DNA from: a virus
Direction: 5' to 3' (one strand)
Length of the DNA stretch: 27,610 bases
Virus record (IMG/VR): IMGVR_UViG_3300012009_000052
Span: 1 to 27,610 of that record
Every line of letters begins with the position of its first letter. Position 1 is the first letter of the stretch. The notes beneath the pieces are model-generated. The model saw nothing but the letters and a program-made list of their open reading frames with translations. It ran no database searches and was not told the origin of the DNA. Positions 1-23,235 of the stretch are shown here, piece by piece. A program made the translations under genes and the position numbers.

Positions 1-1
1 A

Positions 2-5608: not shown

Positions 5609-5610
5609 CC

Positions 5611-5776: not shown

Positions 5777-5814
5777 TTAACAAAAATACAATATCGGCTC
5801 GAAGGAGAAAAACC

Positions 5815-5967: not shown

Positions 5968-7995
5968 TTGGAGCCTACCGGCCTCGCACAATATCTGATC
6001 AAGCTCCGGGATGCCTGGCTCAACACGCGCAAAACCCAGTTTGAGCCGCGGTGGAACGCGAACTACGCCATGATCAACAATCAGGACCCCGAGGACTCCG
6101 AAGAATGGAAGCTCGGGGAAGGAGAGGATTGGCGGTCCACTACCTTCATTCCCCTCCCTAAGGCGAAGGTGTTCGCGGCCCTCTCGATGCTGCTGGAGGT
6201 GATTCTGCAGAGCGGGTCGATCCCCTTCACCCTCAAGGCGGCCGAGGCGTCTGCGTACGAAACTCTCCCCGAGGAGCAGCAGGCGACCATCGATGAGGCC
6301 ATCGAGGGGATGTCGGAGCTGATCAAGGACCAGCTGCGGGACCGGAAAGTGGACCGGAGGTACCTGAAGCACCTCATGAGCCTCTTGGTCTACGGCGAGA
6401 CCATCAGCAAGTACAACGTCGAGCCAATCCTCGAGACGGGGTTCCAGGAAGAGTCCGTTGAGGCTGAGGGGTTGTTCCCCGAAGAGGCGGCGGAGCTTCA
6501 GTCTTTCGTTTACTACGAGGCCGAGCGGGATACCCCGGGGCACGACTATGTGTCTGTGTGGAATTTCCTCTTCGATTATGAGGATGAGGACTTCCGGGCC
6601 AACCGGGGGCAGATCGAGCTACTCCAGCTTTCCCCGTATGAACTCAGGCAGAAGAAGGGCCTTCCCGGGTTTGACGACGAGGCCATCGACCGGGCCATAT
6701 CGGAGAATCGCAACGCCAAGGATGGGCAGGGTACCGGCAGCCTACCCCCCGCGCTGAGGAACCTCCAGGAGCGCAAGCGCAACATGGATGCGTTCGAGGC
6801 GTGGGTGAGGGCCCCGAGGACCTTGGTGGAGGACTACGAGTCCGACCAGCACATGGATGTGGACGGGGGGTTGAACGCCGAGGAGACCGGAGACGAGGTG
6901 GAGGTTCTCGCCCAGGTGGCGAACCAAGAGATTGTGCGGTTTGCGCGGGTGGAGGCGAAGGACCGACCCTATCGCAGGAGCAAGTGGGAGGACGTGCTGG
7001 ACCGGGTGGACGGGATAGGGGTTCCGGACAACCTCAAGGGAATCAGCGCGGCCCTGAACGGCATGGTGAGGGCGTTCGAGGACAACAAGAAGCTCTCTGC
7101 CAACGTCATCCTCGCCATCAAGCGCACCCTCCTCGAGAAGCCCAATCAGATCGATGAGATCAAGCCCGGGTGCCAACTTGATATCTCCGACATGGCCGAG
7201 GATGTGCGGCAGGCTGTCTTACCGATCGTCATTCCAGATGTAGGGGAAACCCTCATGTCGGGCATCGCCATGATGGAGCGGTGGGGGGATACGGCGTCCA
7301 TGATCCCCCAGATCCTCCAGGGGTATGTGCTTCCCAAGCAGAAGTCCGACACGGCCTACGAGCTCTCCCAACTCCTCGAGCAGGCCGGGAAGTACCTCGG
7401 CAGGGGCATTCGGAACCTGGACGAAGGGAACATCGAGCCGGAAATCCGCGATATCTACGTCTACAACATGCAGGACCCGGACGTTCCGCAGGAGAAGAAG
7501 GCCAACGTCAAGGTTCACGCCGGCGGGTTCAACTCATTCCAGGACCGGATCATAAAGGCCCAGAAGATTCGGGAGCTCCTGGCTATGGTGGTGTCGTCCG
7601 AGCTTCTGTTGGGCGAGGTGAAGGTCACGCCCCACCTGAGGGTCGTATACGAGGCCCAGGACTTCGACCCGGATGAGTTCCTGCTGAGCGACGAGGAAAA
7701 GAACCAGAGGGCCGAGGAGCAGGCCGAGATGGAGGCCAAGGCCCGGGTGCAGGCCCTGGACGACCTCCAGATGCAGAAACAGGTGGAGACCCGGGCGAAG
7801 ATCGCAGAGGAGGAGGCCAAGGCCGAGTTCGACAAGGAGAAGGAGACCCTCGAGTCTCAGTTGGACCGGGAAGAGGAGACCCACAAGGCCGATCTGGAGG
7901 ACACGTTGAACGAACACGAATTTCAGCGGGAGATGGTGAAAACCCTCACCCGCGGAGAAGCCCGAGAGGAGGCTGGAGATGGAAGAGAGATGTGA
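5968..7995 (+). CDS. Portal protein
   Basis: The portal is the dodecameric ring through which DNA enters and leaves the head. This 675-residue protein has the size and layout of podovirus-type portals: an alpha/beta N-terminal region, a long central wing and stem region, and a highly charged helical C-terminus (about residues 575-665, rich in E, K, A and Q) able to form an extended coiled-coil barrel. Segments such as YLKHLMSLLVYGETISKYNV, VSVWNFLFDYEDEDF and GWGDTAS-like MMERWGDTASMIPQ fit portal helices. It starts at TTG directly after the previous TAA. Position after terminase and before scaffold supports the call; I identify it by architecture rather than a catalytic motif. Confidence 0.85.
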   Translation: MEPTGLAQYLIKLRDAWLNTRKTQFEPRWNANYAMINNQDPEDSEEWKLGEGEDWRSTTFIPLPKAKVFAALSMLLEVILQSGSIPFTLKAAEASAYETLPEEQQATIDEAIEGMSELIKDQLRDRKVDRRYLKHLMSLLVYGETISKYNVEPILETGFQEESVEAEGLFPEEAAELQSFVYYEAERDTPGHDYVSVWNFLFDYEDEDFRANRGQIELLQLSPYELRQKKGLPGFDDEAIDRAISENRNAKDGQGTGSLPPALRNLQERKRNMDAFEAWVRAPRTLVEDYESDQHMDVDGGLNAEETGDEVEVLAQVANQEIVRFARVEAKDRPYRRSKWEDVLDRVDGIGVPDNLKGISAALNGMVRAFEDNKKLSANVILAIKRTLLEKPNQIDEIKPGCQLDISDMAEDVRQAVLPIVIPDVGETLMSGIAMMERWGDTASMIPQILQGYVLPKQKSDTAYELSQLLEQAGKYLGRGIRNLDEGNIEPEIRDIYVYNMQDPDVPQEKKANVKVHAGGFNSFQDRIIKAQKIRELLAMVVSSELLLGEVKVTPHLRVVYEAQDFDPDEFLLSDEEKNQRAEEQAEMEAKARVQALDDLQMQKQVETRAKIAEEEAKAEFDKEKETLESQLDREEETHKADLEDTLNEHEFQREMVKTLTRGEAREEAGDGREM

Positions 7996-9553: not shown

Positions 9554-10192
9554 ATGAAACGCTTCATTCTTTGCCTCATGGCCTTGCTCGTGGGCCTTGC
9601 CGTGTTCGTGCAGACGGCTTCGGCCGACCCGTTCACCCGGAAGTCGCATGAGTGGACTGCGGAGCAGGAGTTTAAGAAGGGCGTTGTCTTCGGTCTGGAC
9701 CACAAAGCCAAGACCGAGTTCAACGATGACGGGGAAATCAGCAGCCTCTCTCGCCAGGAGAAAACGCCTACCTGCGTAAGCGGCTCCGGGTACACCCTCA
9801 CCTCTGACGACATTCGGGATTACTCAGTGTTTTACATCGACCAGAGCCCGGCTGTCGGTGTGGTGAACCCGATGAGTACCGGAAACGCTGGGATTGGAGT
9901 GAGCGCGGGAGTGACTGTCACCCTTCCGGTTCCCGACGCGAATTGCGACAAGAAGGACTTTTATCTGATCGGTACAGACTCCGGCGGGTCGCAGTTTGTG
10001 ACTTATGTGCCGGGAGGAACCATGTCGGGCGGAACCCCTGTAAGCCAGTCGGCCAACAGAACCGTGGGCAGCGCCAGCGTGACTTCCTGCACTGAATTCC
10101 TCACGATGGACGGCTACTATGATGTCCTGCACCTCAGGGCCAATTACAACTCTGCCGTGAGCTATGAGGTGCTTGATTATTACAACAGATAA
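9554..10192 (+). CDS. Exported protein with Sec signal peptide in the head module
   Basis: This 212-residue protein begins with a textbook signal peptide: basic MKR, a hydrophobic core to about residue 20 and TASA before a predicted cut at 24/25. The mature part is rich in Ser, Gly, Thr and Val with many short strands, as in a beta-sandwich, and has three cysteines. An aaaggag site lies six bases upstream of ATG. It sits between small head genes and the scaffold, where exported proteins are not expected. It could be a virion decoration protein or a periplasmic factor; neither is shown. Confidence 0.7.
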   Translation: MKRFILCLMALLVGLAVFVQTASADPFTRKSHEWTAEQEFKKGVVFGLDHKAKTEFNDDGEISSLSRQEKTPTCVSGSGYTLTSDDIRDYSVFYIDQSPAVGVVNPMSTGNAGIGVSAGVTVTLPVPDANCDKKDFYLIGTDSGGSQFVTYVPGGTMSGGTPVSQSANRTVGSASVTSCTEFLTMDGYYDVLHLRANYNSAVSYEVLDYYNR

Positions 10193-10252
10193 AGTTTCCT
10201 CCCCCGGCCCTGCCTGACGGGAAAAGTAGGCTCAGCCGAACAGGCAGAAGAA

Positions 10253-10286
10253 CCCCTTGGGGCCCTCGGGCCCCCGGGGGCTTTTT
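10253..10286 (+). terminator. Terminator/attenuator before scaffold
   Basis: CCCCTTGGGGCCC (10253-10265) pairs imperfectly with GGGCCCCCGGGGG (10268-10280), leaving a very small loop that probably opens slightly, and is followed by five T. It lies 19 bases before the scaffold ATG, so it probably reduces readthrough into the capsid genes or sets their relative dose. Confidence 0.7.
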
Positions 10287-10304
10287 ATGAAAGGAGACCG
10301 AGAC

Positions 10305-11219
10305 ATGCCGGATGACGAACTCGAAGTCACGGAGCAGACCGAAGAAGGGGACTTTGACAAGGTTTTCGGAGAGGACCCCCCTGTGGAGACCCCATCCGAG
10401 GAAGAGGAGCCTGAAGCCGAAGAGGAGTCTGAGGAGGAGTCTGAGGAAGAAGCCGAAAAGGAAGAGCCCGAGGAGGAGGACCCCGAGAAGGAAGAGCCTG
10501 AGGCGGAAGAGGAAGAGCCCGAGGACGAAGCCCTCACCCGTGGGCGGGAGCTCATGGAGGAGGAAGAGGAGAGCCGGAAGGCGGCTGAAACGGCCCAGGC
10601 CGAGGACCAGAGGAAAGAGACTCCCGCTCCCCAGCCGGTCGCTCCCGGCCTGATCAACGCTCTCTCCTCCTTGGTCTCTAAGGACATCCTCCCCGAGGGT
10701 GCCCTCGAGGTCAACGGGGTGGAGGTGGACCTCCGGGACTACCTCTCCGACAATCCCGAGGTGTCGGCCATCGTGGGGATTGGGTTTCGGCAGGGGATGA
10801 ACCGCCTGATCGAGTCTGGCCGCATCATGACCTCCGACCAAGTAGAGGAAACCGTGAGCAAGGCCGTCTTCGAGGCCACGGTCACATCCCAGCACCGGGA
10901 CGCCCCCAAGATCGTCCAGTCGGACGAGTGGGGAAAGTGGTTCGACGAAGAGGCGACCGACGAGGAGAAGGCCCTCTTCCGGTCCAAGAACCCCATGGAT
11001 CACGTTCTGGGGCTCGAGCGGTTCAAGAACCGGGCCACGGTCAAAAAGGCGCGGGAAAAGAAGGAGGCCCGGGACAAGGAGGCCAAGGAGACCCACGGCA
11101 AGCACAAGGATGTGCACAAGCACACGGGCAGGAGCCGCACCGCTACTCCGAGCTCCAAGCCCTCTTCGGATGATTTCGATGCCGCCTTCGATGAGGCTGC
11201 GGAGAAAGAGGTTGCCTGA
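10305..11219 (+). CDS. Scaffolding protein
   Basis: Scaffolding proteins guide capsid assembly and leave before or during packaging. This 304-residue protein has an extremely acidic, Glu-rich low-complexity N-terminus (about residues 20-90), a helical middle (about 115-250) and a basic, Lys/His-rich segment (about 250-275) before a C-terminal helix rich in Asp, Ala and Phe. Acidic N-terminus, basic C-terminal region and location directly before the capsid gene are the standard signs. ATG 10305 is chosen because aaggag lies eight bases upstream, whereas 10257 falls in the terminator hairpin. Confidence 0.82.
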   Translation: MPDDELEVTEQTEEGDFDKVFGEDPPVETPSEEEEPEAEEESEEESEEEAEKEEPEEEDPEKEEPEAEEEEPEDEALTRGRELMEEEEESRKAAETAQAEDQRKETPAPQPVAPGLINALSSLVSKDILPEGALEVNGVEVDLRDYLSDNPEVSAIVGIGFRQGMNRLIESGRIMTSDQVEETVSKAVFEATVTSQHRDAPKIVQSDEWGKWFDEEATDEEKALFRSKNPMDHVLGLERFKNRATVKKAREKKEARDKEAKETHGKHKDVHKHTGRSRTATPSSKPSSDDFDAAFDEAAEKEVA

Positions 11220-11401
11220 TGGAGCCGCATGAGAGAAAGGCGCTGTGGGAAAAGCGAGGATTCCAGGTAGCGAACGACCCCTACCTTCGGTGCCCCTACT
11301 GCAGCGCCATCCTCGCGGAGGGCAGGTATCCGGACTCCAGCATCAGGATCAAGTGCCGCCGGTGCGGCAACCTGGTTTCGTTTCAACGTCTTCCGCCGTA
11401 A
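11219..11401 (+). CDS. Com-like zinc-finger protein
   Basis: This 60-residue protein has Cys25-x2-Cys28 (RCPYCSAILAEG) and Cys46-x2-Cys49 (IKCRRCGNLV), the pattern of the Com family. In phage Mu, Com binds mRNA and activates translation of the DNA-modification gene mom. No mom-like gene is recognised here. Its start overlaps the scaffold stop by one base, and the capsid leader follows. A role in controlling capsid translation is tempting but only inference; it could equally be a structural zinc ribbon. Confidence 0.7.
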   Translation: MEPHERKALWEKRGFQVANDPYLRCPYCSAILAEGRYPDSSIRIKCRRCGNLVSFQRLPP

Positions 11402-11515
11402 TGCGGTAGGCGAAAGAATACCACGACCAAACCCCTCAAAAGAGAGTCAGAAGGCGTTTTCGAAGCCATAGGAACTCCAGGGGATCATTCATCATGATTT
11501 CGAAAGGAGATCGCT
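11402..11515 (+). other. Capsid gene leader without a gene
   Basis: This 114-base gap before the major capsid gene contains a small inverted repeat, ATCAT (11486-11490) with ATGAT (11494-11498), a loosely pairing CCCCT...AGGGG, and the capsid ribosome site aaaggag about nine bases before the ATG. No terminator or convincing promoter is seen. Confidence 0.4.
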
Positions 11516-12541
11516 ATGTCTTCGAACACCAATGTCTATGGGGACATTTCCCCCAGGACCGCGGCATACGCGGCCATTCGGCTGCTGACCCGTGGCCAGT
11601 TCGACCTGGTGACGGAGCGGTTCGGCCAGAGCCGCCCCCTTCCCAAGAAGAAGTCCAAGACCATCAAGTTCCGGCGGTACGAGTCTTTGCCGAGGGCCAC
11701 CGCGCCCCTGGCTGAGGGTGTTCCCCCGGAAGGACGGAAGCTCACCTACACGGACGTTTCGTGCAGCCTCGAGCAATACGGCGATATCGTCGAACTTACT
11801 GATGTTATTGCAGATACCCATGAGGATAACGTCTTCAAGGAGACGTTCGACAACTGTGGGGAGCAGGCCGCGGAGACCATCGAGGTGGTCAGGATCGCCT
11901 TCCTCAAGGCCGGTTCCAACATTTACTACGCGAACAACGCCGGCGCCCGGGCGTCCGTCAACTCCCCCCCTCTCCGTTCCGACTTCCGGAGGATCTACCG
12001 GGGCTTCAGGCGGAACAAGGCCGCCACCATCGGCAATATCATCAAGGCTTCGGCCAAGATCAGCACCGAGCCGGTGGATCCCGCCTACTTCGTCATGGGG
12101 CACACGGACTGTGATGCGGATGTCCGCAACATGGACGGCTTCATCCCGGTGAAGGAGTATTCCAACTCCGACCGCGCCCTCCCGGCCGAGGTGGGGAGCG
12201 TCGATCAATTCCGGCTCTGCCTGACGGCCCTCTTCGAGCCGTGGGAGACCTCCGGTTACAGCGGGACAACCTACCTGTCCTCCGGCGATATCCCCTCATC
12301 GTCCGCTCAGGCCGATGTGTACCCGCTCATCGCGGTGGGGAAGAACGGGTACGCCATTGTTCCGTTCCAGGGGAAGAACGCCGTGGTCCCCATGGTGGTG
12401 AACCCGAACGGCCGGCCGAGCGTCGGGAACGAGCTCGCCCAGAAGGGGTTCGTCAGCTGGAAGACCTACCAGACCGGAACCATCCTCAATCAGCTGTGGG
12501 TCGCGCGTCTCGAAGCAGCGGCTACGGCTGTCCCAGATTAA
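11516..12541 (+). CDS. Major capsid protein, N4-gp56 family type
   Basis: This 341-residue protein forms the shell. It matches the N4-gp56 capsid family in length and in its early segments: KTIKFRRYESLPRATAPLAE (47-66) with GVPPEGRKLTY, then QYGDIVELTDVIADTHED (87-104), followed by a long helix (FKETFDNCGEQAAETIE) and the usual late alpha/beta domain (YPLIAVGKNGYAIVPFQG). In this family the P-L-A-E-G-x-(P/T)-P and Q-Y-G-x-x-x-x-x-T-D signatures are typical. The aaaggag site and position after the scaffold agree. Confidence 0.9.
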   Translation: MSSNTNVYGDISPRTAAYAAIRLLTRGQFDLVTERFGQSRPLPKKKSKTIKFRRYESLPRATAPLAEGVPPEGRKLTYTDVSCSLEQYGDIVELTDVIADTHEDNVFKETFDNCGEQAAETIEVVRIAFLKAGSNIYYANNAGARASVNSPPLRSDFRRIYRGFRRNKAATIGNIIKASAKISTEPVDPAYFVMGHTDCDADVRNMDGFIPVKEYSNSDRALPAEVGSVDQFRLCLTALFEPWETSGYSGTTYLSSGDIPSSSAQADVYPLIAVGKNGYAIVPFQGKNAVVPMVVNPNGRPSVGNELAQKGFVSWKTYQTGTILNQLWVARLEAAATAVPD

Positions 12542-12621
12542 GTTTTTATAATAATATCAAGCATTTATTCCGCTGTTGCAATTTAACCGGGGCCTCGGCC
12601 CCATAGAAAAGGAGCAGGATC
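12542..12621 (+). other. AT-rich gap and GC hairpin after capsid gene
   Basis: The capsid stop is followed by an unusually AT-rich stretch (gtttttataataatatc, 12542-12558), then by GGGGC-CTCG-GCCCC (12589-12602) and an aaaaggag ribosome site for the next gene. The hairpin lacks a T run, so it is better read as an mRNA-stabilising or processing element than as a terminator. Confidence 0.4.
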
Positions 12622-13287
12622 ATGGGTAAGCGAATCGCAGGAACCTTCAACGGGACGGGGGCCGATCTGTATCTCGGGATCGGCTTCATCCCCGATTGGA
12701 TCCGCCTGATCAACCTGGAGGACGGCGACGAGGTCTCCGTGTTCTGGAGCAAGCACCTCCGCTCCTTGGAGCAGATCGAGGGCCTCCAGTTGCACGATTC
12801 CACCACCAGCCCTCTGACCAAGGGGAATGGCATCATCCCTTACGTTGGGGGTGACGTTTTCACCTCAGCCCAGACCGCCTACATCCGTGAAGAGCCGGAC
12901 GATCGTGACATGCGGGACTCCTCGGGCGGGACCGGCACCATCACCGCCTGGACCCTGGGGAGCGCCGCCAACTACACCGGCAGCTTCGATGAGGGCGTGG
13001 ACACCTCCTATGTTGGGGAGGGTTCCCGGGTCTACATCGAGGAGTCGGTCGGTCACGAGTTCAAGTGGGCGACCATCACCGCGCTGTCGAATGACGGCGA
13101 CGCGGCCAACGAGGTCACGCTGTCCGTTCCGGCCAAGAGCGGCATCGTCCATTTCCTCAGCGCCATGTACGACTACACGGGCGTTGCGGCTGGCGAGCGC
13201 ATGCCGGCCGGGGTGAAGATCAGCAACACTACCCTCAACGTCTCCGGGAACCTCTGCATGTTCGAGGCCGGAACCTACGACAACTGA
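12622..13287 (+). CDS. Putative head decoration protein
   Basis: This 221-residue strand-rich protein starts MGKRIAGTFNGTGADLYLGIGFIPDW. It is rich in Gly, Ser, Thr and Asp, with beta stretches such as GSRVYIEES and NEVTLSVPAKSGIVHFL. It has no signal peptide. It has its own good ribosome site and sits directly between the capsid gene and a terminator (13304-13329), so it can be made in high amounts with the capsid. That pattern suits a decoration or head-fibre protein, but I do not recognise the family. Confidence 0.6.
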   Translation: MGKRIAGTFNGTGADLYLGIGFIPDWIRLINLEDGDEVSVFWSKHLRSLEQIEGLQLHDSTTSPLTKGNGIIPYVGGDVFTSAQTAYIREEPDDRDMRDSSGGTGTITAWTLGSAANYTGSFDEGVDTSYVGEGSRVYIEESVGHEFKWATITALSNDGDAANEVTLSVPAKSGIVHFLSAMYDYTGVAAGERMPAGVKISNTTLNVSGNLCMFEAGTYDN

Positions 13288-13303
13288 TGATTCCAACGCG
13301 AGG

Positions 13304-13329
13304 AGCCCCGGGGCAACCCGGGGCTTTTT
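13304..13329 (+). terminator. Rho-independent terminator after capsid cluster
   Basis: AGCCCCGGG (13304-13312) pairs perfectly with CCCGGGGCT (13317-13325) across a GCAA tetraloop, followed by five T. It closes the scaffold-capsid-decoration unit. The next gene starts 14 bases later, so downstream tail genes rely on readthrough or an unseen promoter. Confidence 0.88.
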
Positions 13330-13343
13330 AAGGAGACCCAGAG

Positions 13344-14189
13344 ATGAGCCAGGAAGCCGACAAGAAAGCCAAGGAGCTCAAGGACGAACTGCTGAAGATC
13401 GAGGACAAGGACTCCCTCTTGGAGTTTGAGGCCAAGAACCGTGACGAGATTCTTTCCGGTCCCATGCACGTCCAGGCCGCGCTGAACACCAAGTGGAAGG
13501 AGATGACGGACCAGTTCTACTTCCAGCCCATCACGGCCCTCCCCCCACAGGCCCAGGTCACGGGAAAGCGGATCGACCCCAAGGGCCAGCAGTACCGCAC
13601 GGTCAGGGAGTTCGAGGAGATCCAGTGGAAGGCTGTTCGCGTGAAGACCCGCAAGGACCGCGTTGAGACCTTCTACAACCTCTCCGGCCTCATCAAGGGG
13701 ACCGGAAGGCGCCGCCTGATTCGCCAGAACCTCCGGGCCGACAACCTCTCCCCCACGTTCCTGAGCGGCGGGGACGAGATCGCCGCGAAGATTCTCAAGG
13801 ACCACGGGGAGGCGAACCTGATCGAGGGCGTCATCAAGAAGAACGTCAGCGTCGCGGTCGAGGGGTATTGGGAAGTCATCTTCGCCCCCGCCCAGAGCAA
13901 GGACGACCCCCACGATGTCGTACTCCAGTGGGAGGGGCAGTGCCTCCAGATCCAGCGAAACGTACCCGTCATCCTCCCCGGGACGCACCTCGAGGCCGCG
14001 GACAACGCCAAGTACCCCGTCTACATCCAGGACCCCGAGAGGAGCAAGGAAGGCCGGAAGATTCAGGGCTGGGTGCAGTTCTTCCCCTACTCCGTCCTCC
14101 GGGAAGCCACGGAGGAGGAGTACCTGGAGATGAAGGCGGCCGGCGATAAGGCGACCCGGAAAGCCAGAAGGGAGGCGCAGGCGGCATGA
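13344..14189 (+). CDS. Hypothetical virion-module protein
   Basis: This 281-residue soluble protein has a charged helical N-terminus (about 1-40), a central strand-rich part (VSVAVEGYWEVIFAP; QCLQIQRNVPVILPGTHLEA) and a basic helical C-terminus. The N-V-P-V-x-(L/V)-P and AADNAKYP region resembles segments of other phage proteins that sit after the capsid gene, but I cannot name a family. An aaggag site precedes the start. The stop overlaps the next ATG, linking it to the adaptor genes. Confidence 0.62.
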   Translation: MSQEADKKAKELKDELLKIEDKDSLLEFEAKNRDEILSGPMHVQAALNTKWKEMTDQFYFQPITALPPQAQVTGKRIDPKGQQYRTVREFEEIQWKAVRVKTRKDRVETFYNLSGLIKGTGRRRLIRQNLRADNLSPTFLSGGDEIAAKILKDHGEANLIEGVIKKNVSVAVEGYWEVIFAPAQSKDDPHDVVLQWEGQCLQIQRNVPVILPGTHLEAADNAKYPVYIQDPERSKEGRKIQGWVQFFPYSVLREATEEEYLEMKAAGDKATRKARREAQAA

Positions 14190-15211
14190 CCCTCATCTCC
14201 AACAAGGCCCTCCTGGACAAGTGCCGGGAGTTCATCGTGGCCGATCCGTCGAGCCAGGCCGTTGACCGCCTGATCAAGGATGCGTTGGTGACGGCCAATC
14301 GGGAGATTTTCACCATCGACGGCTCCACCCCCCTGGCGTGGGCAAGGGAAAGCTACGATGAGTTGTTCACCCGGGCCAATGCGGAGATTTCAGCCGTCAC
14401 GGCGGCCAACCCCGGGGTGATCACCGCGGACTCGGTGGATACGGACCTGTCGTCGGATCACGGGTTCCAGGACGATGACGTGGTGTATATCGACGGGATC
14501 GACGGGATGGACCGGTTGAACCGTCGAACCTACCTCGGCACAAGAGCCTCTGCCACCACCCTCACCCTGACCCAGCTGGACGGCACGAACGTCATCGACA
14601 CTTCGGGCTACGATGCCTACTCGGCCGGCGGGAAGGTGTGCCATGTGGGCTTTGTCCTGCCCAAGGCATCCATCGAGCCGACTGCGGCCCAGATCTCCAC
14701 GGAATCCTATCGCTGGACCATCAAGCGGGTCTGGGACGTGACGTTCGACGGCCACCCCGCAAGGCCCATCAGCGAGGAGAAGGCCCGGGACATGAGCCTC
14801 CTGGATCACGCCGGGGGAAGGCCGAAGTTCTGGCGCTACCAGAAATACTACCGGGGAGGGCCGGATAGCCTCTCCCACCTCCTCCTCTGGTACGGGTGGC
14901 CGAGCGCCAAGTACAACGTATCCGTCCACATCGAGAAGCAGTACCCGGACCTTTCTGAATGGGCAGGGGCAGTCTACCCCCCGCACCCCGAGGAGATCCA
15001 CGACTGCATCTGGCACCGGGCGCTCAAGAACCTCGCCACGAACGCGGAGAGGCAGCGCCGGGAGAGCACAGAGGGGCGCCTGATGGGGCAGATCGAGGTC
15101 TTGTACGCGCAGGTGTGGACGCAGAAGGCAGCCGAGGATGAGGCGATGATCAAGCGACTCTCGAGGAACATGCTGGGGGAGATGCCCCACTACGGAGGGA
15201 CGAGGGCATGA
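14186..15211 (+). CDS. Head-tail adaptor/tail-tube-type protein with inserted beta module
   Basis: This 341-residue protein has adaptor-like helices at both ends. N-terminal: VDRLIKDALVTANREIF (27-42). C-terminal: DCIWHRALKNLATNAERQRRE, then a long helix. At about residues 65-150 there is a beta module (HGFQDDDVVYIDGIDGMDRLN, then TYLGTRASATTLTLTQLDG and DAYSAGG). This module recurs in many phage tail-tube and nozzle proteins, and databases sometimes label it an E1-FCCH-like domain. It overlaps its neighbours by ATGA junctions. It has no signal peptide, unlike the next gene. A role joining portal to tail is inferred from this layout. Confidence 0.68.
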   Translation: MTLISNKALLDKCREFIVADPSSQAVDRLIKDALVTANREIFTIDGSTPLAWARESYDELFTRANAEISAVTAANPGVITADSVDTDLSSDHGFQDDDVVYIDGIDGMDRLNRRTYLGTRASATTLTLTQLDGTNVIDTSGYDAYSAGGKVCHVGFVLPKASIEPTAAQISTESYRWTIKRVWDVTFDGHPARPISEEKARDMSLLDHAGGRPKFWRYQKYYRGGPDSLSHLLLWYGWPSAKYNVSVHIEKQYPDLSEWAGAVYPPHPEEIHDCIWHRALKNLATNAERQRRESTEGRLMGQIEVLYAQVWTQKAAEDEAMIKRLSRNMLGEMPHYGGTRA

Positions 15212-15921
15212 AGCGAGCCCTACTTTTCGCGCTGGTCTCCTGCCTCCTTGCCGTGAACGCATGGGCCGGGGGGTCGCAGGGTACATCGGGAGTGACCGCG
15301 CAGGATATTATTGACGATATCCGGAATGACTTCAACGAAGACTCGGGGCTGTTCACCGACTCAGAGGCCGTCCAGTGGCTTGATGAGGCCGTGAGGGAGA
15401 TCAACTACCGGGCCCGGTGCCTGGAGTCTGGGGCTTCAAACATTATCTTGGCGGCGAACGATTGGGATTACGCCCTCACGCACTCCTACATGGACATCGA
15501 GAAGGTTATGTACGATTCAGGCGTGACCGACGACGACTACAGCCCACAGGTTTACGCTCTTGATCGGGTGCCGTTTCAGAAACTCCGTTACGGGCATGAG
15601 AAGGACCGGGGATCCCCGAAGTCTTGGGCTGTGTGGAACGACACCCTTTTCATTTGGCCGGTGCCGAGAAGCACAGAGTCGGGCAGCACCCTTTACCTCT
15701 ACTCCGTGGAGACGCCATCGGGCGTCACGGTCACTTCAAGCGCAATCGAGACACCATCGTATTTCGATGAGGCGATCAAACGCTATGTTCTCGCCAAAGC
15801 CTATTACAAGGACCGACAGAGGGCCAAGGGCAATGCGGAAATGGCTCTTTTCCGAGATTACATCAGTCTTTATGTGTCCCGATGGGGGCTGATAGCGCCC
15901 GCTCAACCTCCTCCACAGTAA
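15208..15921 (+). CDS. Adaptor/tail-tube-like protein with Sec signal peptide
   Basis: This 237-residue protein begins MKRALLFALVSCLLAVNAWA, a complete signal peptide with AWA before the likely cut at 20/21. The mature part looks like a phage adaptor: TAQDIIDDIRNDFNED, then DSEAVQWLDEAVREINYRAR, then a beta-rich middle (NDTLFIWPVPRS, STLYLYSVETPSG) and a final helix pair with AIKRYVLAKAYYKDR. These helices and the F-x-W-P-x-P strand are typical of head-tail connector proteins, which are normally cytoplasmic. It is coupled to the preceding adaptor by ATGA, and its end overlaps a minus-strand gene by 59 bp. Confidence 0.7.
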   Translation: MKRALLFALVSCLLAVNAWAGGSQGTSGVTAQDIIDDIRNDFNEDSGLFTDSEAVQWLDEAVREINYRARCLESGASNIILAANDWDYALTHSYMDIEKVMYDSGVTDDDYSPQVYALDRVPFQKLRYGHEKDRGSPKSWAVWNDTLFIWPVPRSTESGSTLYLYSVETPSGVTVTSSAIETPSYFDEAIKRYVLAKAYYKDRQRAKGNAEMALFRDYISLYVSRWGLIAPAQPPPQ

Positions 15922-16135
15922 ATGAGCCTTTGACCGGCGGTTCCTCGACGCTCACATCGTAGGCGATGCGACCGAGAAGAACCTGGACGTTCCCCGTTTT
16001 ATGGTCAAGCCGATAGGCCAGGGACTTGTGGTTCGACCGCACCACCTCATACCGGCTCCGCTCAATCCATCTTTCGGAGCAAATGGCCCCGGTCCCGATA
16101 GCGGCCAAGGCAATAACCAATAATATCCATTTCAC
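15863..16135 (-). CDS. Small membrane-anchored protein on the opposite strand
   Basis: This 90-residue protein starts at GTG (complement of 16133-16135), seven bases after a gggggtgag site. It has an N-terminal hydrophobic helix (KWILLVIALAAIGTGAI) and a polar domain, RYEVVRSNHK then AYRLDHKTGNVQVLLG. The Y-R-L-D-x-K-T-G-x-(V/W) turn recurs in small membrane-tethered proteins of bacteria and phages. It fills the otherwise empty 250 bases between two tail genes and runs against all other genes here. It may be expressed separately, as superinfection or immunity genes often are; that is speculation. Confidence 0.6.
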   Translation of the reverse strand: MKWILLVIALAAIGTGAICSERWIERSRYEVVRSNHKSLAYRLDHKTGNVQVLLGRIAYDVSVEEPPVKGSFTVEEVERALSAPIGTHKD

Positions 16136-16171
16136 TTGACTCACCCCCTTTCGCGGCAAGGATACCATCAA

Positions 16172-18757
16172 ATGAGGATGGGGTTCAAAGCGATTTTTGT
16201 TGCGCTGGGTTTCGCTTTCCTCTGCGCCTCGGCCTACGCCCAAGAGGTGCCGGAAGAAAATTGGCGACGCCAGTCCTATGTTTTTGACGGCAAATTGGAC
16301 CGGACCATTCCTTGGGTCGGGCAGAAACCCGGTGCGGTCAAGGAGGCGCTGAATGTTGCCAGGCCCGCGGCCTCTGTCTCGTTGGGGTGGGGTCCAAGGA
16401 CCGGCACGACCAGGCACAACACCTCTGCTATCGGCTCGTATACCATCAAGGCCCTCTCTCAGTACACGAACGCCTTCCACGATACCGACTCCTTCATCGC
16501 CCAGTGCAACGACCAGCTTTACCTTGCAGACAATGACCCCCCCTCGAGTGCGGGTGGAGCCTTCGGGTCTGCGATCTATTCTTTGGATTCCGGGGCTTCT
16601 CCGATGTTCGCGGAGCCCGTGAACGATTACTGGGTTGGAGCTGCGGCCGGCACGACCCCCTTCATCTGGTCAGGCGGGACGGAGTACCCTCGGTTTTTCT
16701 TCATTTCGCACAATTCGGCTGTTTCCTCCTATGTGGACGGGACGGACGATGTGTCGGATGACCGGGACGACACCTACGTTCTGTTCGTGGAGGACTCTGG
16801 GGAGACGGCCTACATCGGCTCTCCTCTCCGGTTGGACGGGTTCTACGTTGAGTTGACCGGAGCCACGAACATCGAGGCGGCGGGACTCTACGTTAAGGCG
16901 TACCAGAACGGTTCCTGGGCGGATGTGGCGGGCCTCTCGGACGGCACAGCCGATGCAACGGGTGTCACGACCCTCTATGAATCCGAAGGCCATGTCACTT
17001 GGTCCTTTGACGAGGACGATGATCCGTTTCTGTTGCCGGAAAACCAGGAACACCTCTTCTGGTACAAGACCGGCGTCACGGCAGACATCACGGATGGGGT
17101 GAAGATCAATCGCCTGAGAGTGAACGCCGACTGCCAGAGCATGACGAACCTCTGGAGCGGATACTATGAGAACGTGGCCTCGGCCCTTCTTTCCTCCGCT
17201 ACGGGGTTCGTGGATTACACCGGGGAAGTGACGGACGGGACCAGCGTCAATTACCTGGACCTCAACGGGGAGAACACTCTTTACATCGGGAGTCCCTACC
17301 CCGTCTTCGCTGTCTATTTCTACATCGACCCGGAGTACCCAAACCTTTCCTCCAACGTCTATCTGCAGGATGTTTCCTATTGGGACGGGGACAATCGCCA
17401 ATGGACGGCGGTTTCCGGGGCCACAAACGACTCCACTTCGTCCGACGACGAATACGCAATGCACCACAACGGCGCGGTCCAATGGGACGGGTCCACCTTT
17501 CAGGAGGACAAAATGCGCCTGGGCGGGGCCTCCGGCACGGACCTCTCCCCTATTTACTTTTACAAGCTGGAATGGAGCGGGGCGTTTTCCAGCGAAACAC
17601 ATATCTACGAAATTGCCGTAGCCCAGAAGCCCGAGTCCATCCCTCCGATGAATCATTACGATGGGTTTATCGAGCATGCCGGAAGGGTGTTTGCCTGGCC
17701 AGGGGACAAGTTCAAGCACGGGATGGATTTTGCCCAAGAGGGCGACCCCTTCGTGTGGAACGGGCAAAAAGCCGGATCCACGGGCGACATTTTCGGGCCG
17801 GGGATCGTCAATGCGGCGGCAAGGCTCTCCTCGTATGTGGTGGTGAGCACCGAGCATCCACATCGGTTGTACTTGATGCAAGGGAAGTCCCCCGGGTCGT
17901 TTGATGAGCTCCTTCTTGCCTCGAACGTGGGGGCCGTGGCGCCCCACACGATGGTGACGATCGAGGATGGGGTGAGGCTTTTTTCGACGGAGCTGGTCTA
18001 CAACGCCGTGGTCCTCATGGCGCCTGATGGGTTCTACGCGACGGACGGGAGAAAGCCCCTCTCGATATCGCAACCCATCGCGGATTACTTCGACACCGGC
18101 TCGACCCCGTATATCGAGCCTGCGCACATGCACAAGTCTTTTGCCGTGGTGGACTACGAAAACCGCGTGGTCCTCTTCGGCGTGCCGCTGAACGTGGAGA
18201 ACAACAGCACCACCCAGACAACGTGCAACTACATTTTGCCGTACAGTTACATCAACGATGAGTGGTGGGATCGGTGGGAGCTTTCGTCTGATGCGGCCTG
18301 CGGGACCAATCTGGTGGGGAGCAACGACCAGCGGTTGACCTACTTGGGGGATCATTCCGGGTATGTGTGGCGGTTTGAAGGGGACACGGACAACGAGACG
18401 AGGATCGAGCATTGGGTGAAGACGCCTGATTTCTTCCTGGGGAAGTCGTCCGATGCGCTGAACCGCAAAACCCGGCTGAGGGCGGTCAAGACCAAGACCA
18501 AGACGGACACCGTGGGGAACGTGGAGGTGGTCCTCTATCCCGAGGGGGCTAAGAGTGGCGTCTCCCCCACGGTCAATACGATGTCCCTTGTCCGCTCAGG
18601 GTACGACTACACCAAGGGCCGGATCAACTGCAACGAGGCGGCTGAGTCCTTCGCCATTCGCTTTCGGGCCGGCTATGCCTCCGGGGATGCCGGGGCCGAA
18701 ATGGAAATCTATGGGTTCACATGCGACTACTACGATGTGCGCGATACACAGCCGTAA
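16172..18757 (+). CDS. Tail nozzle-like protein with Sec signal peptide
   Basis: This 861-residue protein has the layout of podovirus tail nozzle proteins (T7 gp12 / P22 gp10 type): an N-terminal gene-product signature (SYVFDGKLDRTIPW, KPGAVKEALNVARP, then a GPRTGT turn), long beta-rich blades, a YDGFIEHAGRVFAWPGDKF / FAQEGDPFVWN region, and later VVLMAPDGFYATDGRK and YLGDHSGYVWRFEGD. It is preceded by MRMGFKAIFVALGFAFLCAS-AYA, a signal peptide cut near 23/24. ATG 16172 is chosen over 16136 because it begins at the signal peptide and follows aagga. An exported nozzle is unexpected. Confidence 0.72.
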   Translation: MRMGFKAIFVALGFAFLCASAYAQEVPEENWRRQSYVFDGKLDRTIPWVGQKPGAVKEALNVARPAASVSLGWGPRTGTTRHNTSAIGSYTIKALSQYTNAFHDTDSFIAQCNDQLYLADNDPPSSAGGAFGSAIYSLDSGASPMFAEPVNDYWVGAAAGTTPFIWSGGTEYPRFFFISHNSAVSSYVDGTDDVSDDRDDTYVLFVEDSGETAYIGSPLRLDGFYVELTGATNIEAAGLYVKAYQNGSWADVAGLSDGTADATGVTTLYESEGHVTWSFDEDDDPFLLPENQEHLFWYKTGVTADITDGVKINRLRVNADCQSMTNLWSGYYENVASALLSSATGFVDYTGEVTDGTSVNYLDLNGENTLYIGSPYPVFAVYFYIDPEYPNLSSNVYLQDVSYWDGDNRQWTAVSGATNDSTSSDDEYAMHHNGAVQWDGSTFQEDKMRLGGASGTDLSPIYFYKLEWSGAFSSETHIYEIAVAQKPESIPPMNHYDGFIEHAGRVFAWPGDKFKHGMDFAQEGDPFVWNGQKAGSTGDIFGPGIVNAAARLSSYVVVSTEHPHRLYLMQGKSPGSFDELLLASNVGAVAPHTMVTIEDGVRLFSTELVYNAVVLMAPDGFYATDGRKPLSISQPIADYFDTGSTPYIEPAHMHKSFAVVDYENRVVLFGVPLNVENNSTTQTTCNYILPYSYINDEWWDRWELSSDAACGTNLVGSNDQRLTYLGDHSGYVWRFEGDTDNETRIEHWVKTPDFFLGKSSDALNRKTRLRAVKTKTKTDTVGNVEVVLYPEGAKSGVSPTVNTMSLVRSGYDYTKGRINCNEAAESFAIRFRAGYASGDAGAEMEIYGFTCDYYDVRDTQP

Positions 18758-18774
18758 TAAGGGGAGGGTATATA

Positions 18775-19257
18775 ATGAAAAAGGTTTTTCTGTTGACATT
18801 GTCCAGCCTGCTTGTTTTTGTATTTTGCAGTTCATCTTTTGCAATAGACGCTAAAGACAAGGTAAAAGCGATTCAAAATGTTGAGCAGATTACTTTGTCT
18901 CAATATGAGAATGACGCTGCATGTAGCATTGCCTTTAAGTGCGTGTTCGACAAGTTCAATTTTGCTGTATTTACAAATAGAATAACGTCTGAGCATGGCG
19001 CCTGGCAACTTGCGTATGCTATTTGGAATGTTTTCAATGCAGACGTTATGCCAACCAAAGAGTTCAAGTCTTTAAGGTCTTGCGATGCAGAGGAAGTTCA
19101 TTTTTGGGTGATGGTCGATCAGTTTGGTGTTTGGGATGTGTCTACGTCAATGCGGTTTTCTGAAGGGGAAGTGACAGAGACCGTTTACGGGAAACACTAC
19201 AATATGTCGGACGCTATAAAGGCATTGCATGAAACGTGTTCATTACATAGCAATTAG
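18775..19257 (+). CDS. AT-rich exported protein of unknown function
   Basis: This 160-residue protein begins with a signal peptide (MKKVFLLTLSSLLVFVF, ending SSSFA near residue 23). The mature part is mixed alpha/beta with five cysteines (CSIAFKC, SC, TC) that could pair in an oxidising compartment. No family is recognised. ATG 18775 follows a ggggaggg site and is preferred over 18721, which lies in the nozzle gene. The gene is strikingly more AT-rich than its neighbours, with A/T-ending codons, which points to recent transfer: a typical inserted accessory gene. Confidence 0.7.
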   Translation: MKKVFLLTLSSLLVFVFCSSSFAIDAKDKVKAIQNVEQITLSQYENDAACSIAFKCVFDKFNFAVFTNRITSEHGAWQLAYAIWNVFNADVMPTKEFKSLRSCDAEEVHFWVMVDQFGVWDVSTSMRFSEGEVTETVYGKHYNMSDAIKALHETCSLHSN

Positions 19258-20455
19258 ATGCTTTGCCTTGGCTTTTATTTCCTGCTTGGTCCTCGGCTGG
19301 AAGCTCCCCGGAGCGGAGCATCAGTCTTCCGATCTGCACGATTGGGCGACCCAGCTTCAGGAGCGGGACATCGAGGGCTCGCGTGTCGAGAACCCCAAAA
19401 GGAAGGCGTCTCAGGATAAGTGGACCGGCCTGAATGCCTTTCCCGGCGATCCTTATCCTGACGACCTTTTGGATATGGAGAACACGGTCTGGCCGCATTT
19501 CCCCACCAATCCATGGAATATGCCGGATTGGGATTTTGCGGACTACCCCGACCCCGAAGAGACGCATGTGGGTAGCTGGTGGGGGAGCGACCCCGGTTCC
19601 GGCGGGGCTTGGCGGGTCTGCCGCCCGGAGGCCGGGGGCTACTACATCGAGTGCGGGACGTGCGAAAACTGGCCGATCAATCAGCCCGACTCCGACATCC
19701 TGGAGCTCACCACGTTCACCGGGCAGGGCAACTGGACCCACTTCGACAACAGCCTCATCACAGTATGCGCCTATGCCGGAGCCGAGGACGGCCAGGAGAT
19801 CACGGTTGGTTACACCGGCATCCCGGTTGTTGGCGGGAAGATGTATCCGCCCTACCACTGCGAGAAAACCTACTACGTCCAGTGCGAGGACTGTGAGTGC
19901 CAGGGGGCTGTGCCGCCGATTAACGGCGACAGCGCGACAATCGACCCGGACGGCGGCGCGGACAACACGGTGGACTTGTGGGTGGATTCCAGCCTTGCTT
20001 GTGGCCCCTTCTCTTGGGAAGTTTCGGGGTGGGGGTTCCATTTCGGCTCCACCTCCGGCCCCACAACGGGGGAGACCGAGGAGGAGCTTGAAATCATCAC
20101 GCTCTACGCCGATTCTTCGGCCTGCGGGACCGCCACGATTACCGTGACGGACAGTTGCGGCGTAACGGGAACGGCCTACTTAAAGTGTACCAGCGGCAAA
20201 TGGAAGGCATGTAACAGCAGCAGTGTTGGGGGTTGCACCACAGATGGAACTGGATGGCATCTCTACCTTTACAGCCCTGTTTGCGCGGTTTATTCCACTA
20301 CCGCTGCGCCGGGGGATGGCTACTGTGGTTGCCCGAGATTTACGGGAGGTGAGAGTTACTGCGTAAGGTGCCGTGAGCACGATGGCACCCTTTGCTTCTG
20401 CGTTGATCTTCTGCCATACTGTAGCTATAAAATGCTAAGTTGGATATGCTCATGA
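19229..20455 (+). CDS. Cysteine-rich secreted protein
   Basis: This 408-residue protein has an N-terminal signal-like segment (HYIAIRCFALAFISCLVLGW); FISC could be a weak lipobox. It contains 25 cysteines in total, 23 of them after the hydrophobic segment. A middle part rich in Asp, Pro and Trp precedes an Ig-like segment (GPFSWEVSGWGFHFGS... ACGTATITVTDSCG), and the last 100 residues hold dense CxC/CxxC pairs. That composition implies many disulfides and an extracytoplasmic or virion-surface site. It overlaps the previous gene by 29 bp (weak aagg site). It could be a receptor-binding or tail-tip protein by position; not proven. Confidence 0.7.
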   Translation: MKRVHYIAIRCFALAFISCLVLGWKLPGAEHQSSDLHDWATQLQERDIEGSRVENPKRKASQDKWTGLNAFPGDPYPDDLLDMENTVWPHFPTNPWNMPDWDFADYPDPEETHVGSWWGSDPGSGGAWRVCRPEAGGYYIECGTCENWPINQPDSDILELTTFTGQGNWTHFDNSLITVCAYAGAEDGQEITVGYTGIPVVGGKMYPPYHCEKTYYVQCEDCECQGAVPPINGDSATIDPDGGADNTVDLWVDSSLACGPFSWEVSGWGFHFGSTSGPTTGETEEELEIITLYADSSACGTATITVTDSCGVTGTAYLKCTSGKWKACNSSSVGGCTTDGTGWHLYLYSPVCAVYSTTAAPGDGYCGCPRFTGGESYCVRCREHDGTLCFCVDLLPYCSYKMLSWICS

Positions 20456-20865
20456 ATTTCTTTAGGATTACAGTGCTTCTGCTTTCGTTTTGCCTAGCGG
20501 CACCCGTTTTTGCCGAGAAGCGGTTTGCTAAAAAGGGGTCCGGGGTGCGCTTAAATCAATCCTTTCTCCCCCTCAAAGACGGGACGTTCTACGCAGTAGG
20601 ACAGGATAAGGTTTTTGCGCCGGAAGTGCTGCTTACGCCCTCGGAGCTTGCCGAGAACCGCCACCACACGATGACGTGGTTGAATCGGTTTCGGTATTGG
20701 GAAAGCGGCTCTCCCCCAAGGGAGCCGATGATTGAACGGGCGAAAAGGGAGATCCGCAACCGAAGGGAGCTTTTCCGCACCCTTTCCGGCGAGAACTGGT
20801 TTCGGCAGGACATCATGGGAAACCCCGAGGAGATAGACGAAGGCCCTCCCGACCAAGGCGGGTGA
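20452..20865 (+). CDS. Small exported protein
   Basis: This 137-residue protein begins MNFFRITVLLLSFCLAAPVFA, a signal peptide cut near 21/22, followed by a basic stretch (EKRFAKKGSG) and a soluble mixed domain with LTPSELAENRHHTMTWLNRF. ATG 20452 is selected because it overlaps the previous stop (ATGA) and starts at the signal peptide; a TTG at 20440 would add four residues. No family is recognised. It is the last of three consecutive exported-type genes and precedes a hairpin and the internal protein genes. Confidence 0.65.
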   Translation: MNFFRITVLLLSFCLAAPVFAEKRFAKKGSGVRLNQSFLPLKDGTFYAVGQDKVFAPEVLLTPSELAENRHHTMTWLNRFRYWESGSPPREPMIERAKREIRNRRELFRTLSGENWFRQDIMGNPEEIDEGPPDQGG

Positions 20866-20907: not shown

Positions 20908-21540
20908 ATGGCGACCTATACAGACGCGAGAAATCTTCTGAGGGCTTCCAAAGGAACGGTGGACTACCCCGCAGCGGTGGGGAGCGCATACCGGGCTTTG
21001 GGTTCCCAAAACCTTGCAGCGAGGAAATACCGTGACGCGCTGGACCTCAGGGAGAGGCAGTTTGGGCTCCAGCAGGAACAGTTTGAGACGGGCAAGGAGC
21101 AGTGGGGGAAGCAGTTTGGGGAGAGCACGCGACAGTTCGACACCCAGGAAGAGAGATTTCGGGATACCTTGGATGCCCTCATGAAGGAGCGGGACCGAAG
21201 GTTTCAGCTTGCTGAGAAACAGGAGGGCAGGTTTTCTGATTACCAGGATTGGCAGAAGAAGCGATTTGGGATCCAGTTTGGGGCAGGAACCCCGGATGAG
21301 CGGGTATCGTCTTTTTGGGAGCCCATGGGGTTCACGGCTGAAAACTACCGCCAGACCCCCTCCGGTCAGTACCTCTACGGCAATGAGGGAACGCAGGCGG
21401 GAGGACAGGGGGCCTTTGGCACGTCCGGCAGCACCACAGCGGCCCCCGTAAATCCAATGCAGGGTATACCGGCGGGCGGGTGGAGATCGGGGAAACCCGG
21501 TGGCCCCTACCTTAGAGCCCTTCCCCGACGAGCCAGATAA
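20908..21540 (+). CDS. Internal virion/ejection-type protein with Q-F heptads
   Basis: This 210-residue protein has a helical core (about residues 45-115) built of seven-residue units with an aromatic anchor and Gln/Glu: RQFGLQQ, EQFETGK, EQWGKQF, GESTRQF, DTQEERF. Such Q-F coiled-coil repeats occur in phage internal or ejection proteins found between tail and giant genes. The C-terminal third is Gly/Ser/Thr-rich and disordered. A gaggagg site lies six bases upstream of ATG. The role in the virion is inferred from position and composition. Confidence 0.62.
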   Translation: MATYTDARNLLRASKGTVDYPAAVGSAYRALGSQNLAARKYRDALDLRERQFGLQQEQFETGKEQWGKQFGESTRQFDTQEERFRDTLDALMKERDRRFQLAEKQEGRFSDYQDWQKKRFGIQFGAGTPDERVSSFWEPMGFTAENYRQTPSGQYLYGNEGTQAGGQGAFGTSGSTTAAPVNPMQGIPAGGWRSGKPGGPYLRALPRRAR

Positions 21541-21552
21541 GGAGTTCGGCCC

Positions 21553-23235
21553 ATGATTGACGCATCTTTGTTTACAGACGAGCAGCTTGAGCAAGCCATT
21601 CGGCGGTTTCAGCCCAAGGCGGGAGGGAGGACTCCTTCCTTCACCGTCCCCGAGGCCATGACGGACAAGGACCGAGGGCAGAAGCAATGGGAGCTCGACC
21701 GTCTCAATGAGGAGATCGCAGTTTGGGAGAGGCCGCGGGAATGGTCTTTGCCCGACAAGGCACAGCCTCACATGCAGACCGGCTTTGCCGATGAGGGGGT
21801 TTTGAGGCAAGACGAATTGGCCGCCCGACCCGATGCTGAGGGGTGGGATCCCGGCAAGATCAGCCCCCGCTTTGCGCGAGAGACCGGGATTTACGCCCTG
21901 CCTAGTGGTGAAGTGACCAATGAGGGGAAGGAACTCAAGGCCAGGGGTTTCGAGCAAAGCGATACCGCCAAGCAGCGGTACATCGAGGCCATCCAGAAGC
22001 GAAACCAGCTTCGCCAGGAGCTCGCCCAGGACAAGGCCGGCGTGGCGAACATCCCCGGATACGGGATCTTCGAGCGGGGCGAGGAAGGGAAGCTCGGCAA
22101 GCGGATCGCAGAGGCTCCAACGGCCGGCGACTGGACGAAAACTCGAGAGGGCGCCACGACCTTGGCTCTACTGGACAAGGTGGGCGAGGGCGGGAAGCTG
22201 AGCAAGGCGCAGGAGATCTCCTTCAGGAACCACCACAAGCGACTCTCTGATCAGCTGGCGACGGTACAGGAACCCCTTTTGACCGGGCAGATTGAGGGTG
22301 AAGGCGGGATCAATCGCCCTCTGACTCAAGAAGAGCGACAGTATTTTGAGTCCCAGGCCGAGGGCATCAAGGGCCAAATGCAGACGCTCGAGTCAGTCAT
22401 GGGAGGCAGTGGGCAGGGAGTAGACGAGGCGTTCGAGGTCAAAGGGGGGCAAGATGGGTATCAGGAAATGATGCCCCAGGTGACGGATCGGCTGAATGCC
22501 ATCGAGAAGGCCAAGGGGCGAGAGGCGGCAGAAAGGGTCCTCGGTCAGGTCCAGAGGATGATCCAAAACAAGCGCCCGCCCGCTGATATCGAGCAGTACC
22601 TCAAGGACGCCGCGACGGGAGTGGAGAGACAGGGGGCCCAGAGGGAGGAACCCCAAGGACAGCCCAGGCAGGAAAAATCCCCCGTCGATGAGGGCCTCAT
22701 GGAGGTCAACGCTCCCGCTATGCCCCGGCCTTCCCGCAAGCCCATGATGCGCCCACAGGGAGGCGAAGCGGGTTCCGTCTCGGCATCGGCCGCCCGGTCG
22801 CAGGCCATGTCTACCCGGTCCCCCCAGGATATCCAGCGGAACCGGCAAAGGCTGGACGAGGCGTTCGGCCCGGACCGGGTTAACCAGATGACCTCTGATA
22901 TGGACATCGGGAATCCCTTCACCTCTGCCCAAAAGAGCATGGAGAACATCGGGGGGTACTTCGACCGGGCCACTACCGCCGTCCAGGGGCGCAGGGGCAG
23001 GGGCGTGGTCCCGGAGGATGTCCAGGCTGACCGGACCGCCGTCCTCACCAAGGCCGAGCAGGTCTCCCCCGGCGCGGGACAGAAGATCGAGAGCGCCCTC
23101 ACGAAGGTCTTCGGGGGGGAGTATTTCGACCCCAACACCCAGACCATCAAGCCCGAAGCCATCCCCGTGCTGGTGCAGGTTGCCAGGCAGTTGGGGCTTT
23201 CTGATCAGCAGATTCAGCAAATCATGGGGACGTGA
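21553..23235 (+). CDS. Putative internal virion protein
   Basis: This 560-residue, Gln/Arg/Glu-rich, largely helical protein has no membrane segment. Landmarks are EEIAVWERPREW, a long helical middle (LDKVGEGGKLSKAQEIS; AIEKAKGREAAERVLGQVQ), a disordered linker rich in Gln, Pro and Arg (about 355-430) and a C-terminal alpha domain ending LGLSDQQIQQIMGT. Its size and place between the Q-F repeat protein and the giant gene match ejection proteins of podoviruses. An aaggag site precedes ATG, and its stop overlaps the next start (TGATG). Family assignment is not secure. Confidence 0.6.
   Translation: MIDASLFTDEQLEQAIRRFQPKAGGRTPSFTVPEAMTDKDRGQKQWELDRLNEEIAVWERPREWSLPDKAQPHMQTGFADEGVLRQDELAARPDAEGWDPGKISPRFARETGIYALPSGEVTNEGKELKARGFEQSDTAKQRYIEAIQKRNQLRQELAQDKAGVANIPGYGIFERGEEGKLGKRIAEAPTAGDWTKTREGATTLALLDKVGEGGKLSKAQEISFRNHHKRLSDQLATVQEPLLTGQIEGEGGINRPLTQEERQYFESQAEGIKGQMQTLESVMGGSGQGVDEAFEVKGGQDGYQEMMPQVTDRLNAIEKAKGREAAERVLGQVQRMIQNKRPPADIEQYLKDAATGVERQGAQREEPQGQPRQEKSPVDEGLMEVNAPAMPRPSRKPMMRPQGGEAGSVSASAARSQAMSTRSPQDIQRNRQRLDEAFGPDRVNQMTSDMDIGNPFTSAQKSMENIGGYFDRATTAVQGRRGRGVVPEDVQADRTAVLTKAEQVSPGAGQKIESALTKVFGGEYFDPNTQTIKPEAIPVLVQVARQLGLSDQQIQQIMGT

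Follow-up and report, generated by a model that had tools for sequence, protein, structure and literature searches.

Sec-type leaders on the head-to-tail adaptor and neighbouring proteins of a short-tailed phage lineage: possible completion of the virion across two compartments

Gene content of the window and recovery of relatives

The DNA analysed here, called the window, is a 27,610-base virus fragment from IMG/VR on which 32 genes were considered (Table 1). Genes are designated by their start positions and relatives by L numbers. In addition to the tabulated features, an acidic scaffold-like protein is encoded on the plus strand. The ejection role of ORFs 20908, 21553, and 23232 is presumed from their position and size, and ORF 23232 extends past the contig end. 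This giant, cysteine-free ORF (window 23232-27608; L003 contig 24699-40247; L069 from 4699) carries an LPD1 polyvalent-protein domain and reaches 5182 aa in the L003 contig; the two genes preceding it are also cysteine-free. Directly after the capsid gene, at 12622-13287, lies a member of a widespread family that also occurs in L005, L010, and L020 and is present in two to three tandem copies in some relatives.

Neither a DNA search of a phage collection nor single-sequence searches with the nozzle and adaptor proteins returned useful relatives. Relatives were recruited via the capsid protein 11516, which served as an anchor, and subsequently via alignments in capsid and adaptor searches. A nozzle search of bacterial genomes gave zero matches, and the capsid search of bacterial genomes yielded mostly leaderless loci, which were used as controls. 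The nearest capsid proteins in bacterial assemblies stem from one Deltaproteobacteria assembly (59% identity) and one Desulfobacteraceae assembly (52% identity), which may give a weak hint at the host; an adaptor search of 85 genomes of one class was empty and says nothing on the host. The leader-bearing genomes are all metagenomic fragments, with no cultured member among them.

Table 1. Features of the window; a slash marks the predicted end of a leader.
Feature	Position	Strand	Basis or remarks
Two overlapping glycosyltransferase-like ORFs, left end	1-949		PF13692 E 7e-9; PF13439 below cut-off
Small and large terminase and portal, leaderless controls	3257..7995	+	phrog_1206, phrog_2, phrog_1216
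212-aa protein with Sec-type leader, between portal and scaffold	9554..10192	+
Leader of gene 9554	9554-9625		MKRFILCLMALLVGLAVFVQTASA/DPF; site ASA/DPF
Major capsid protein, N4 gp56 type, leaderless control	11516..12541	+	phrog_1357 E 1.4e-52
Second adaptor-like protein without leader, internal control	14186..15211	+	PF24175 E 7.6e-4, under curated cut-off
Head-to-tail adaptor with Sec-type leader	15208..15921	+	PF24175, fold search, leader kept in clade
Leader of gene 15208	15208-15267		MKRALLFALVSCLLAVNAWA/GGS; site AWA/GGS
Probable tail nozzle/stabilisation protein with Sec-type leader	16172..18757	+	Position after adaptor; hhalign; leaders in homologues
Leader of gene 16172	16172-16240		MRMGFKAIFVALGFAFLCASAYA/QEV; site AYA/QEV
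160-aa protein with Sec-type leader	18775..19257	+
Leader of gene 18775	18775-18843		MKKVFLLTLSSLLVFVFCSSSFA/IDA; site SFA/IDA
Cysteine-rich protein with hydrophobic N-terminus and weak cleavage site	19229..20455	+	23 Cys after leader
Leader of gene 19229			MKRVHYIAIRCFALAFISCLVLG/WKL; weak site, just VLG/W
137-aa basic protein with Sec-type leader	20452..20865	+
Leader of gene 20452	20452-20514		MNFFRITVLLLSFCLAAPVFA/EKR; site VFA/EKR
Three presumed internal/ejection ORFs (20908, 21553, 23232), leaderless, zero cysteines	20908..27608	+

Six Sec-type leaders

Six genes of the window open with Sec-type leaders, as the initial annotation had claimed: the ORFs and their starts are as it described them, and a simple rule selects exactly these six and none of the 26 other genes. 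The rule requires a basic n-region, an uncharged nine-residue core with a mean hydropathy of at least 1.9, small residues at positions -3 and -1, and the absence of a long transmembrane segment. Five of the six leaders show clear n-, h-, and c-regions and small residues at both -3 and -1, and 19229 shows these features weakly; the five A-X-A-like motifs reported earlier are correct, and 19229 was rightly set apart from them. A tightened form of the rule picks out 0.6% of shuffled sequences. Among the genes following the capsid gene, it picks out 23 of 65 in leader-bearing genomes versus 9 of 359 in relatives in which no adaptor bears a leader (Fisher p 4e-14, uncorrected for relatedness). Calls made by so simple a rule include known false positives, notably in the 12622 family of relatives, whose characteristic start, GTGA.VY.C.GFVPD, fools it.

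That these leaders are artefacts of wrong start codons or chance hydrophobic N-termini is scarcely credible. Starts were indeed picked by rule, the 12622 family does produce false positives, and the ribosome-site-like sequence upstream of 20452 is weak. Against this, such sequences are clear at 9554 and 18775, the ATG of 15208 overlaps the stop codon of 14186, and for five of the six genes the window offers no in-frame alternative start with a ribosome site at the border between leader and mature protein; the exception is gene 20452, where a GTG that may have a ribosome site occurs at residue 32. Mis-annotated starts were rejected on these grounds. Nor did the clade contain relatives whose start lies past the leader and has a better ribosome site; the leader trait is kept across diverged homologues, which, like the low rate in shuffled sequences, argues against chance. 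Export of the six proteins by the Tat pathway was likewise rejected, as none of the leaders has an RR motif. The mature parts of the leader proteins contain no second hydrophobic or transmembrane segment. Judged by their sequences, the leaders are almost certainly selected Sec-type signals, and they are likely to be actually translocated and cleaved.

A separate observation concerns small proteins of relatives, encoded either between the genes for portal and scaffold or ahead of them (L003:612-1843, L007:5084-6216, L013:4868-5287), which bear Tat-like N-termini reading MNRRSFVKA, MKITRRGFLK, MNRREFIKA, MIDRRTFIK, and MKRRTFLK. Pfam TAT_signal matches two of these proteins below its cut-off.

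The adaptor and its leader

Protein 15208 matches the Pfam family SU10_adaptor (PF24175) over residues 30-220 with an E-value of 5.5e-18 and 66.5 bits (curated cut-off 27); the match starts at residue 30 and so leaves out the 20-residue leader together with a short linker. The best PDB matches of an AlphaFold model built from nine homologues (pLDDT 72) are phage portal-tail and tail complexes with the adaptors of cyanophage A4, SU10, KHP30, GP4, N4, and T7, the SU10 match having an E-value of 6e-7 and TM-scores being only about 0.5. PDB sequence searches with the adaptor and nozzle returned nothing relevant. Protein 15208 is a podovirus head-to-tail adaptor, and one of the six leaders clearly belongs to an adaptor.

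Comparison with close relatives, suggested along with the initial annotation, revealed a leader on all ten adaptors of the window's kind (window, L003, L005, L006, L011, L020, L021, L022, L026, and L079; L023 and L024, near-copies of L022, are outside the ten), and homologues of 16172 bear leaders as well. Thirty-eight more distant adaptor homologues have no leader and begin directly at the domain; among them are the homologue of a cultured Pseudoalteromonas phage and those at loci in assemblies from many Proteobacteria. A phylogeny of the mature domain places all nine leader-bearing adaptors that were tested in a single clade, with one change (SH-aLRT 95). As far as seen, the leader was gained once, so that the homologues are not independent.

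The adaptor leaders are only 17% identical among themselves, and the first 23 residues of the mature proteins 50%, yet every leader retains a hydrophobic core and a small residue (A, S, or G) at -1. The mature N-terminus G[S/T]xxTS follows the leader directly in nine aligned adaptors; in L079 it reads YSTVTS. The mature N-termini of the leader-bearing adaptors have almost no K/R, with 0.1 per 14 residues versus 1.6 in leaderless homologues (p 4e-4, indicative only, the homologues being related), and K/R-poor mature N-termini are as expected for exported proteins. On the sequences compared, the leaders of the adaptors are a conserved trait and no accident.

The initial annotation had set passage of virion parts through the periplasm against a re-use of the leaders. 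One form of re-use, the retention of hydrophobic N-termini on virion proteins that insert into the host membrane at genome ejection, would suit proteins such as adaptor and nozzle, which line the ejection path according to the part of the SU10 report drawn on here (PMC9509320). It is nonetheless highly improbable: the leaders have complete n-, h-, and c-regions with cleavage motifs, and the same leader type is found on unrelated accessory and lectin-like proteins. Moreover, such leaders would be captured by SRP or SecA during synthesis. Export is favoured over an ejection anchor because the cleavage motif lies directly before a conserved, K/R-poor mature N-terminus and no second hydrophobic segment follows. 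Of the two earlier options, the sequences thus point to export, while the translocation itself we infer.

The probable nozzle and the other leader genes

Gene 16172 probably encodes the tail nozzle, considering its position after the adaptor together with a weak profile match. Its profile aligns with those of annotated stabilisation proteins over 247 columns in hhalign (56% probability, E 1e-4). The L003 homologue matches phrog_5107 (E 9e-5), a family that is also matched by an annotated stabilisation protein of L015. A database search with the window protein gave no confident match, and the AlphaFold model of the nozzle, based on three sequences, has a pLDDT of 35. The earlier claim that the leader genes include an adaptor and a nozzle holds for the adaptor by family and fold; for the nozzle it is plausible and less firm.

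The products of genes 9554, 18775, 19229, and 20452 are putative virion proteins, and database searches assigned none of them to a known family. The leader of the 9554 family is retained in the homologues of L002, L003, L006, L021, and L026, in all of which, L026 excepted, the site is followed by A/DPF, A/DPY, or A/EDPF. No homologue of 18775 was present among the fetched loci, and at the position that corresponds to 20452, L003 (18627-18971) encodes a protein whose N-terminus is leader-like. The homologues of 19229 in L003 (36 Cys), L022 (19 Cys), and L005 (partial) also have a hydrophobic N-terminus; full-length members of this family carry 19-36 cysteines after the leader, the presumed ejection proteins zero. 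Two more leader proteins are encoded downstream of the giant ORF in L003, one of them a ConA-like lectin resembling virion proteins.

The hydrophobic N-termini of the 19229 family, with their poor cleavage sites, would fit a mechanism in which the leaders target proteins to the inner membrane and cleavage is absent or slow. Adaptor and nozzle would then be tethered and the tail built around docked heads, an arrangement that would let heads and tail parts meet before lysis. We consider such tethering unlikely, given that a good cleavage motif ends the leader in all nine aligned adaptors, directly followed by the conserved mature N-terminus, and that a Sec-translocated domain would still be located on the periplasmic side.

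In L022, two leader genes of the tail module flank the gene for a membrane protein of the Wzy_C family (PF04932, O-antigen ligase type, E 5e-19), and L023 and L024 likewise have a Wzy_C gene between two leader genes of this module. The inserted segment (L022:6859-8551) comprises the Wzy_C protein and a small TPR-like protein and separates the nozzle gene from the cysteine-rich gene. Enzymes of the Wzy_C type act in the periplasm. The protein may modify exported tail proteins or may simply alter host surface sugars.

Linkage of leaders within an adaptor-nozzle cassette

Of 30 pairs formed by an adaptor gene and the long gene after it, 28 agree in leader state (both with leader in 7, neither in 21). 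The two mixed pairs are L020, where a leader visible by eye is missed by the rule, and L012, which has a different gene at the next-gene position. According to the rule, no leader is present on the terminase, portal, scaffold, capsid, and ejection genes of the window. In the leader-bearing genomes, leaders are likewise missing from the capsid protein, from families 13344 and 14186, and from the ejection genes, and none was found among 20 homologues of 14186. L029 possesses a leaderless adaptor and next gene, and its capsid groups with that of the leader-bearing L011; in L079, leaders on both adaptor and next gene occur beside a different capsid family (PF13252). Together with the linkage of the two genes, these cases indicate that the leaders move together with the adaptor-nozzle cassette and form a single functional state. 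Unlike the adaptor tree, the capsid-gene tree does not unite the leader-bearing loci in one clade, since L029 falls inside, as do L008 and L009, which are labelled leaderless only for lack of data. The opposite leader states of L029 and L011, whose capsids group together, suggest that the adaptor-nozzle cassette has been exchanged between genomes.

The gene order also bears on the proposal that the leader proteins are not virion proteins at all, in which case adaptor- and nozzle-like copies would have been redeployed in the envelope, e.g., to block superinfection, and 14186 would be the true adaptor. The window does have two adaptor-like genes, the other four leader genes are only putatively virion genes, and export of envelope-modifying proteins is common among phages. 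Even so, the proposal is decidedly unlikely. Two adaptor-like genes are also present in the leaderless relatives L029, L031, and L035, and the order in L029 is identical (adaptor-like, adaptor, nozzle position), which places 15208 where the normal adaptor resides and leaves no other candidate. The fold of 15208, in addition, matches portal-bound adaptors.

Comparison with known systems

The adaptor family is already known, and the Sec leader is the new element. Adaptors of the SU10/N4 type (PF24175), solved in SU10, N4, KHP30, and GP4, belong to the same sequence family as 15208, have the same fold, and share the gene order, being encoded after the capsid gene and before a gene of the nozzle/stabilisation type. 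In known members the protein begins with the domain, whereas in the window adaptor a conserved Sec leader precedes it. The adaptor homologues of the cultured phages Shocker and DS1 are leaderless. The adaptor of the N4-like phage DEV has been modelled from residue 2 (PMC10925440), and a signal peptide is not mentioned for SU10 in those sections of the report that are used here (PMC9509320). Nozzle-type proteins such as P22 gp10 and that of SU10 resemble 16172 in their position right after the adaptor and in the weak profile similarity to stabilisation proteins; 16172 differs in having a leader. The gene following the adaptor encodes 840-880 aa in most complete leader-bearing loci versus 530-700 aa in most leaderless counterparts.

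Filamentous phages (Inoviridae) make coat proteins with Sec signals, and their assembly takes place at the inner membrane. The two systems have in common Sec leaders on virion proteins handled at the membrane, a resemblance of logic only between unrelated viruses: the window carries the terminase, portal, and N4 gp56-type capsid genes of a tailed dsDNA virus, and no inovirus genes (filamentous coat protein, zot-type ATPase) were seen in it. The host Sec system is also used by SAR endolysins and by further phage lysis proteins whose N-termini are of the Sec type (PMC3765740); they are, however, non-virion lysis proteins, and the SAR type lacks a cleavage site. The literature open to search yielded no earlier case of a Sec leader on a tailed-phage connector.

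A possible assembly route and its implications

The assembly of tailed phages, including short-tailed ones, is regarded as cytoplasmic and as ending before lysis. The explanation preferred here, held at about even confidence, is that the leaders are working Sec/signal-peptidase-I signals and that tail-side parts mature in the periplasm and are docked to filled heads at lysis. Head, DNA-packaging, and internal ejection proteins would be made and assembled in the cytoplasm. The adaptor, the probable nozzle, and the neighbouring accessory proteins, one of them cysteine-rich, would be exported by Sec, cleaved, and would then mature in the periplasm. Once the inner membrane is breached at lysis, filled heads would dock the tail-side parts, and the virion would be completed across two compartments. 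Translocation, cleavage, and the timing and place of assembly we infer. Besides the linked leaders and the leaderless head, packaging, and ejection genes, a periplasmic step is hinted at by the many cysteines of the 19229 family, by mature parts free of membrane segments, by the Wzy_C protein of L022, L023, and L024, and by the additional leader proteins of L003. For the assembly route taken by itself, i.e., periplasmic tail parts joining filled heads, confidence falls just short of even. A shade more tentative still is the proposal of a short-tailed dsDNA phage lineage whose heads form in the cytoplasm, whose connectors and tails form in the periplasm after Sec export, and whose parts come together upon opening of the inner membrane. 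Some points speak against the periplasmic route. It is awkward that cytoplasmic heads and periplasmic tails meet only after the inner membrane opens; the adaptor, which has one cysteine, needs no disulfides; leaders of the 19229 type have poor cleavage sites; and the leader-bearing homologues, going back to a single gain as far as seen, do not count as independent cases.

A conserved export signal on a portal-binding adaptor family would imply either that the virion is finished outside the cytoplasm or that there is a membrane-bound assembly site. If true, either route would alter current views of how tailed phages are built, and it would account for the making of tail parts that are glycosylated or rich in disulfides.
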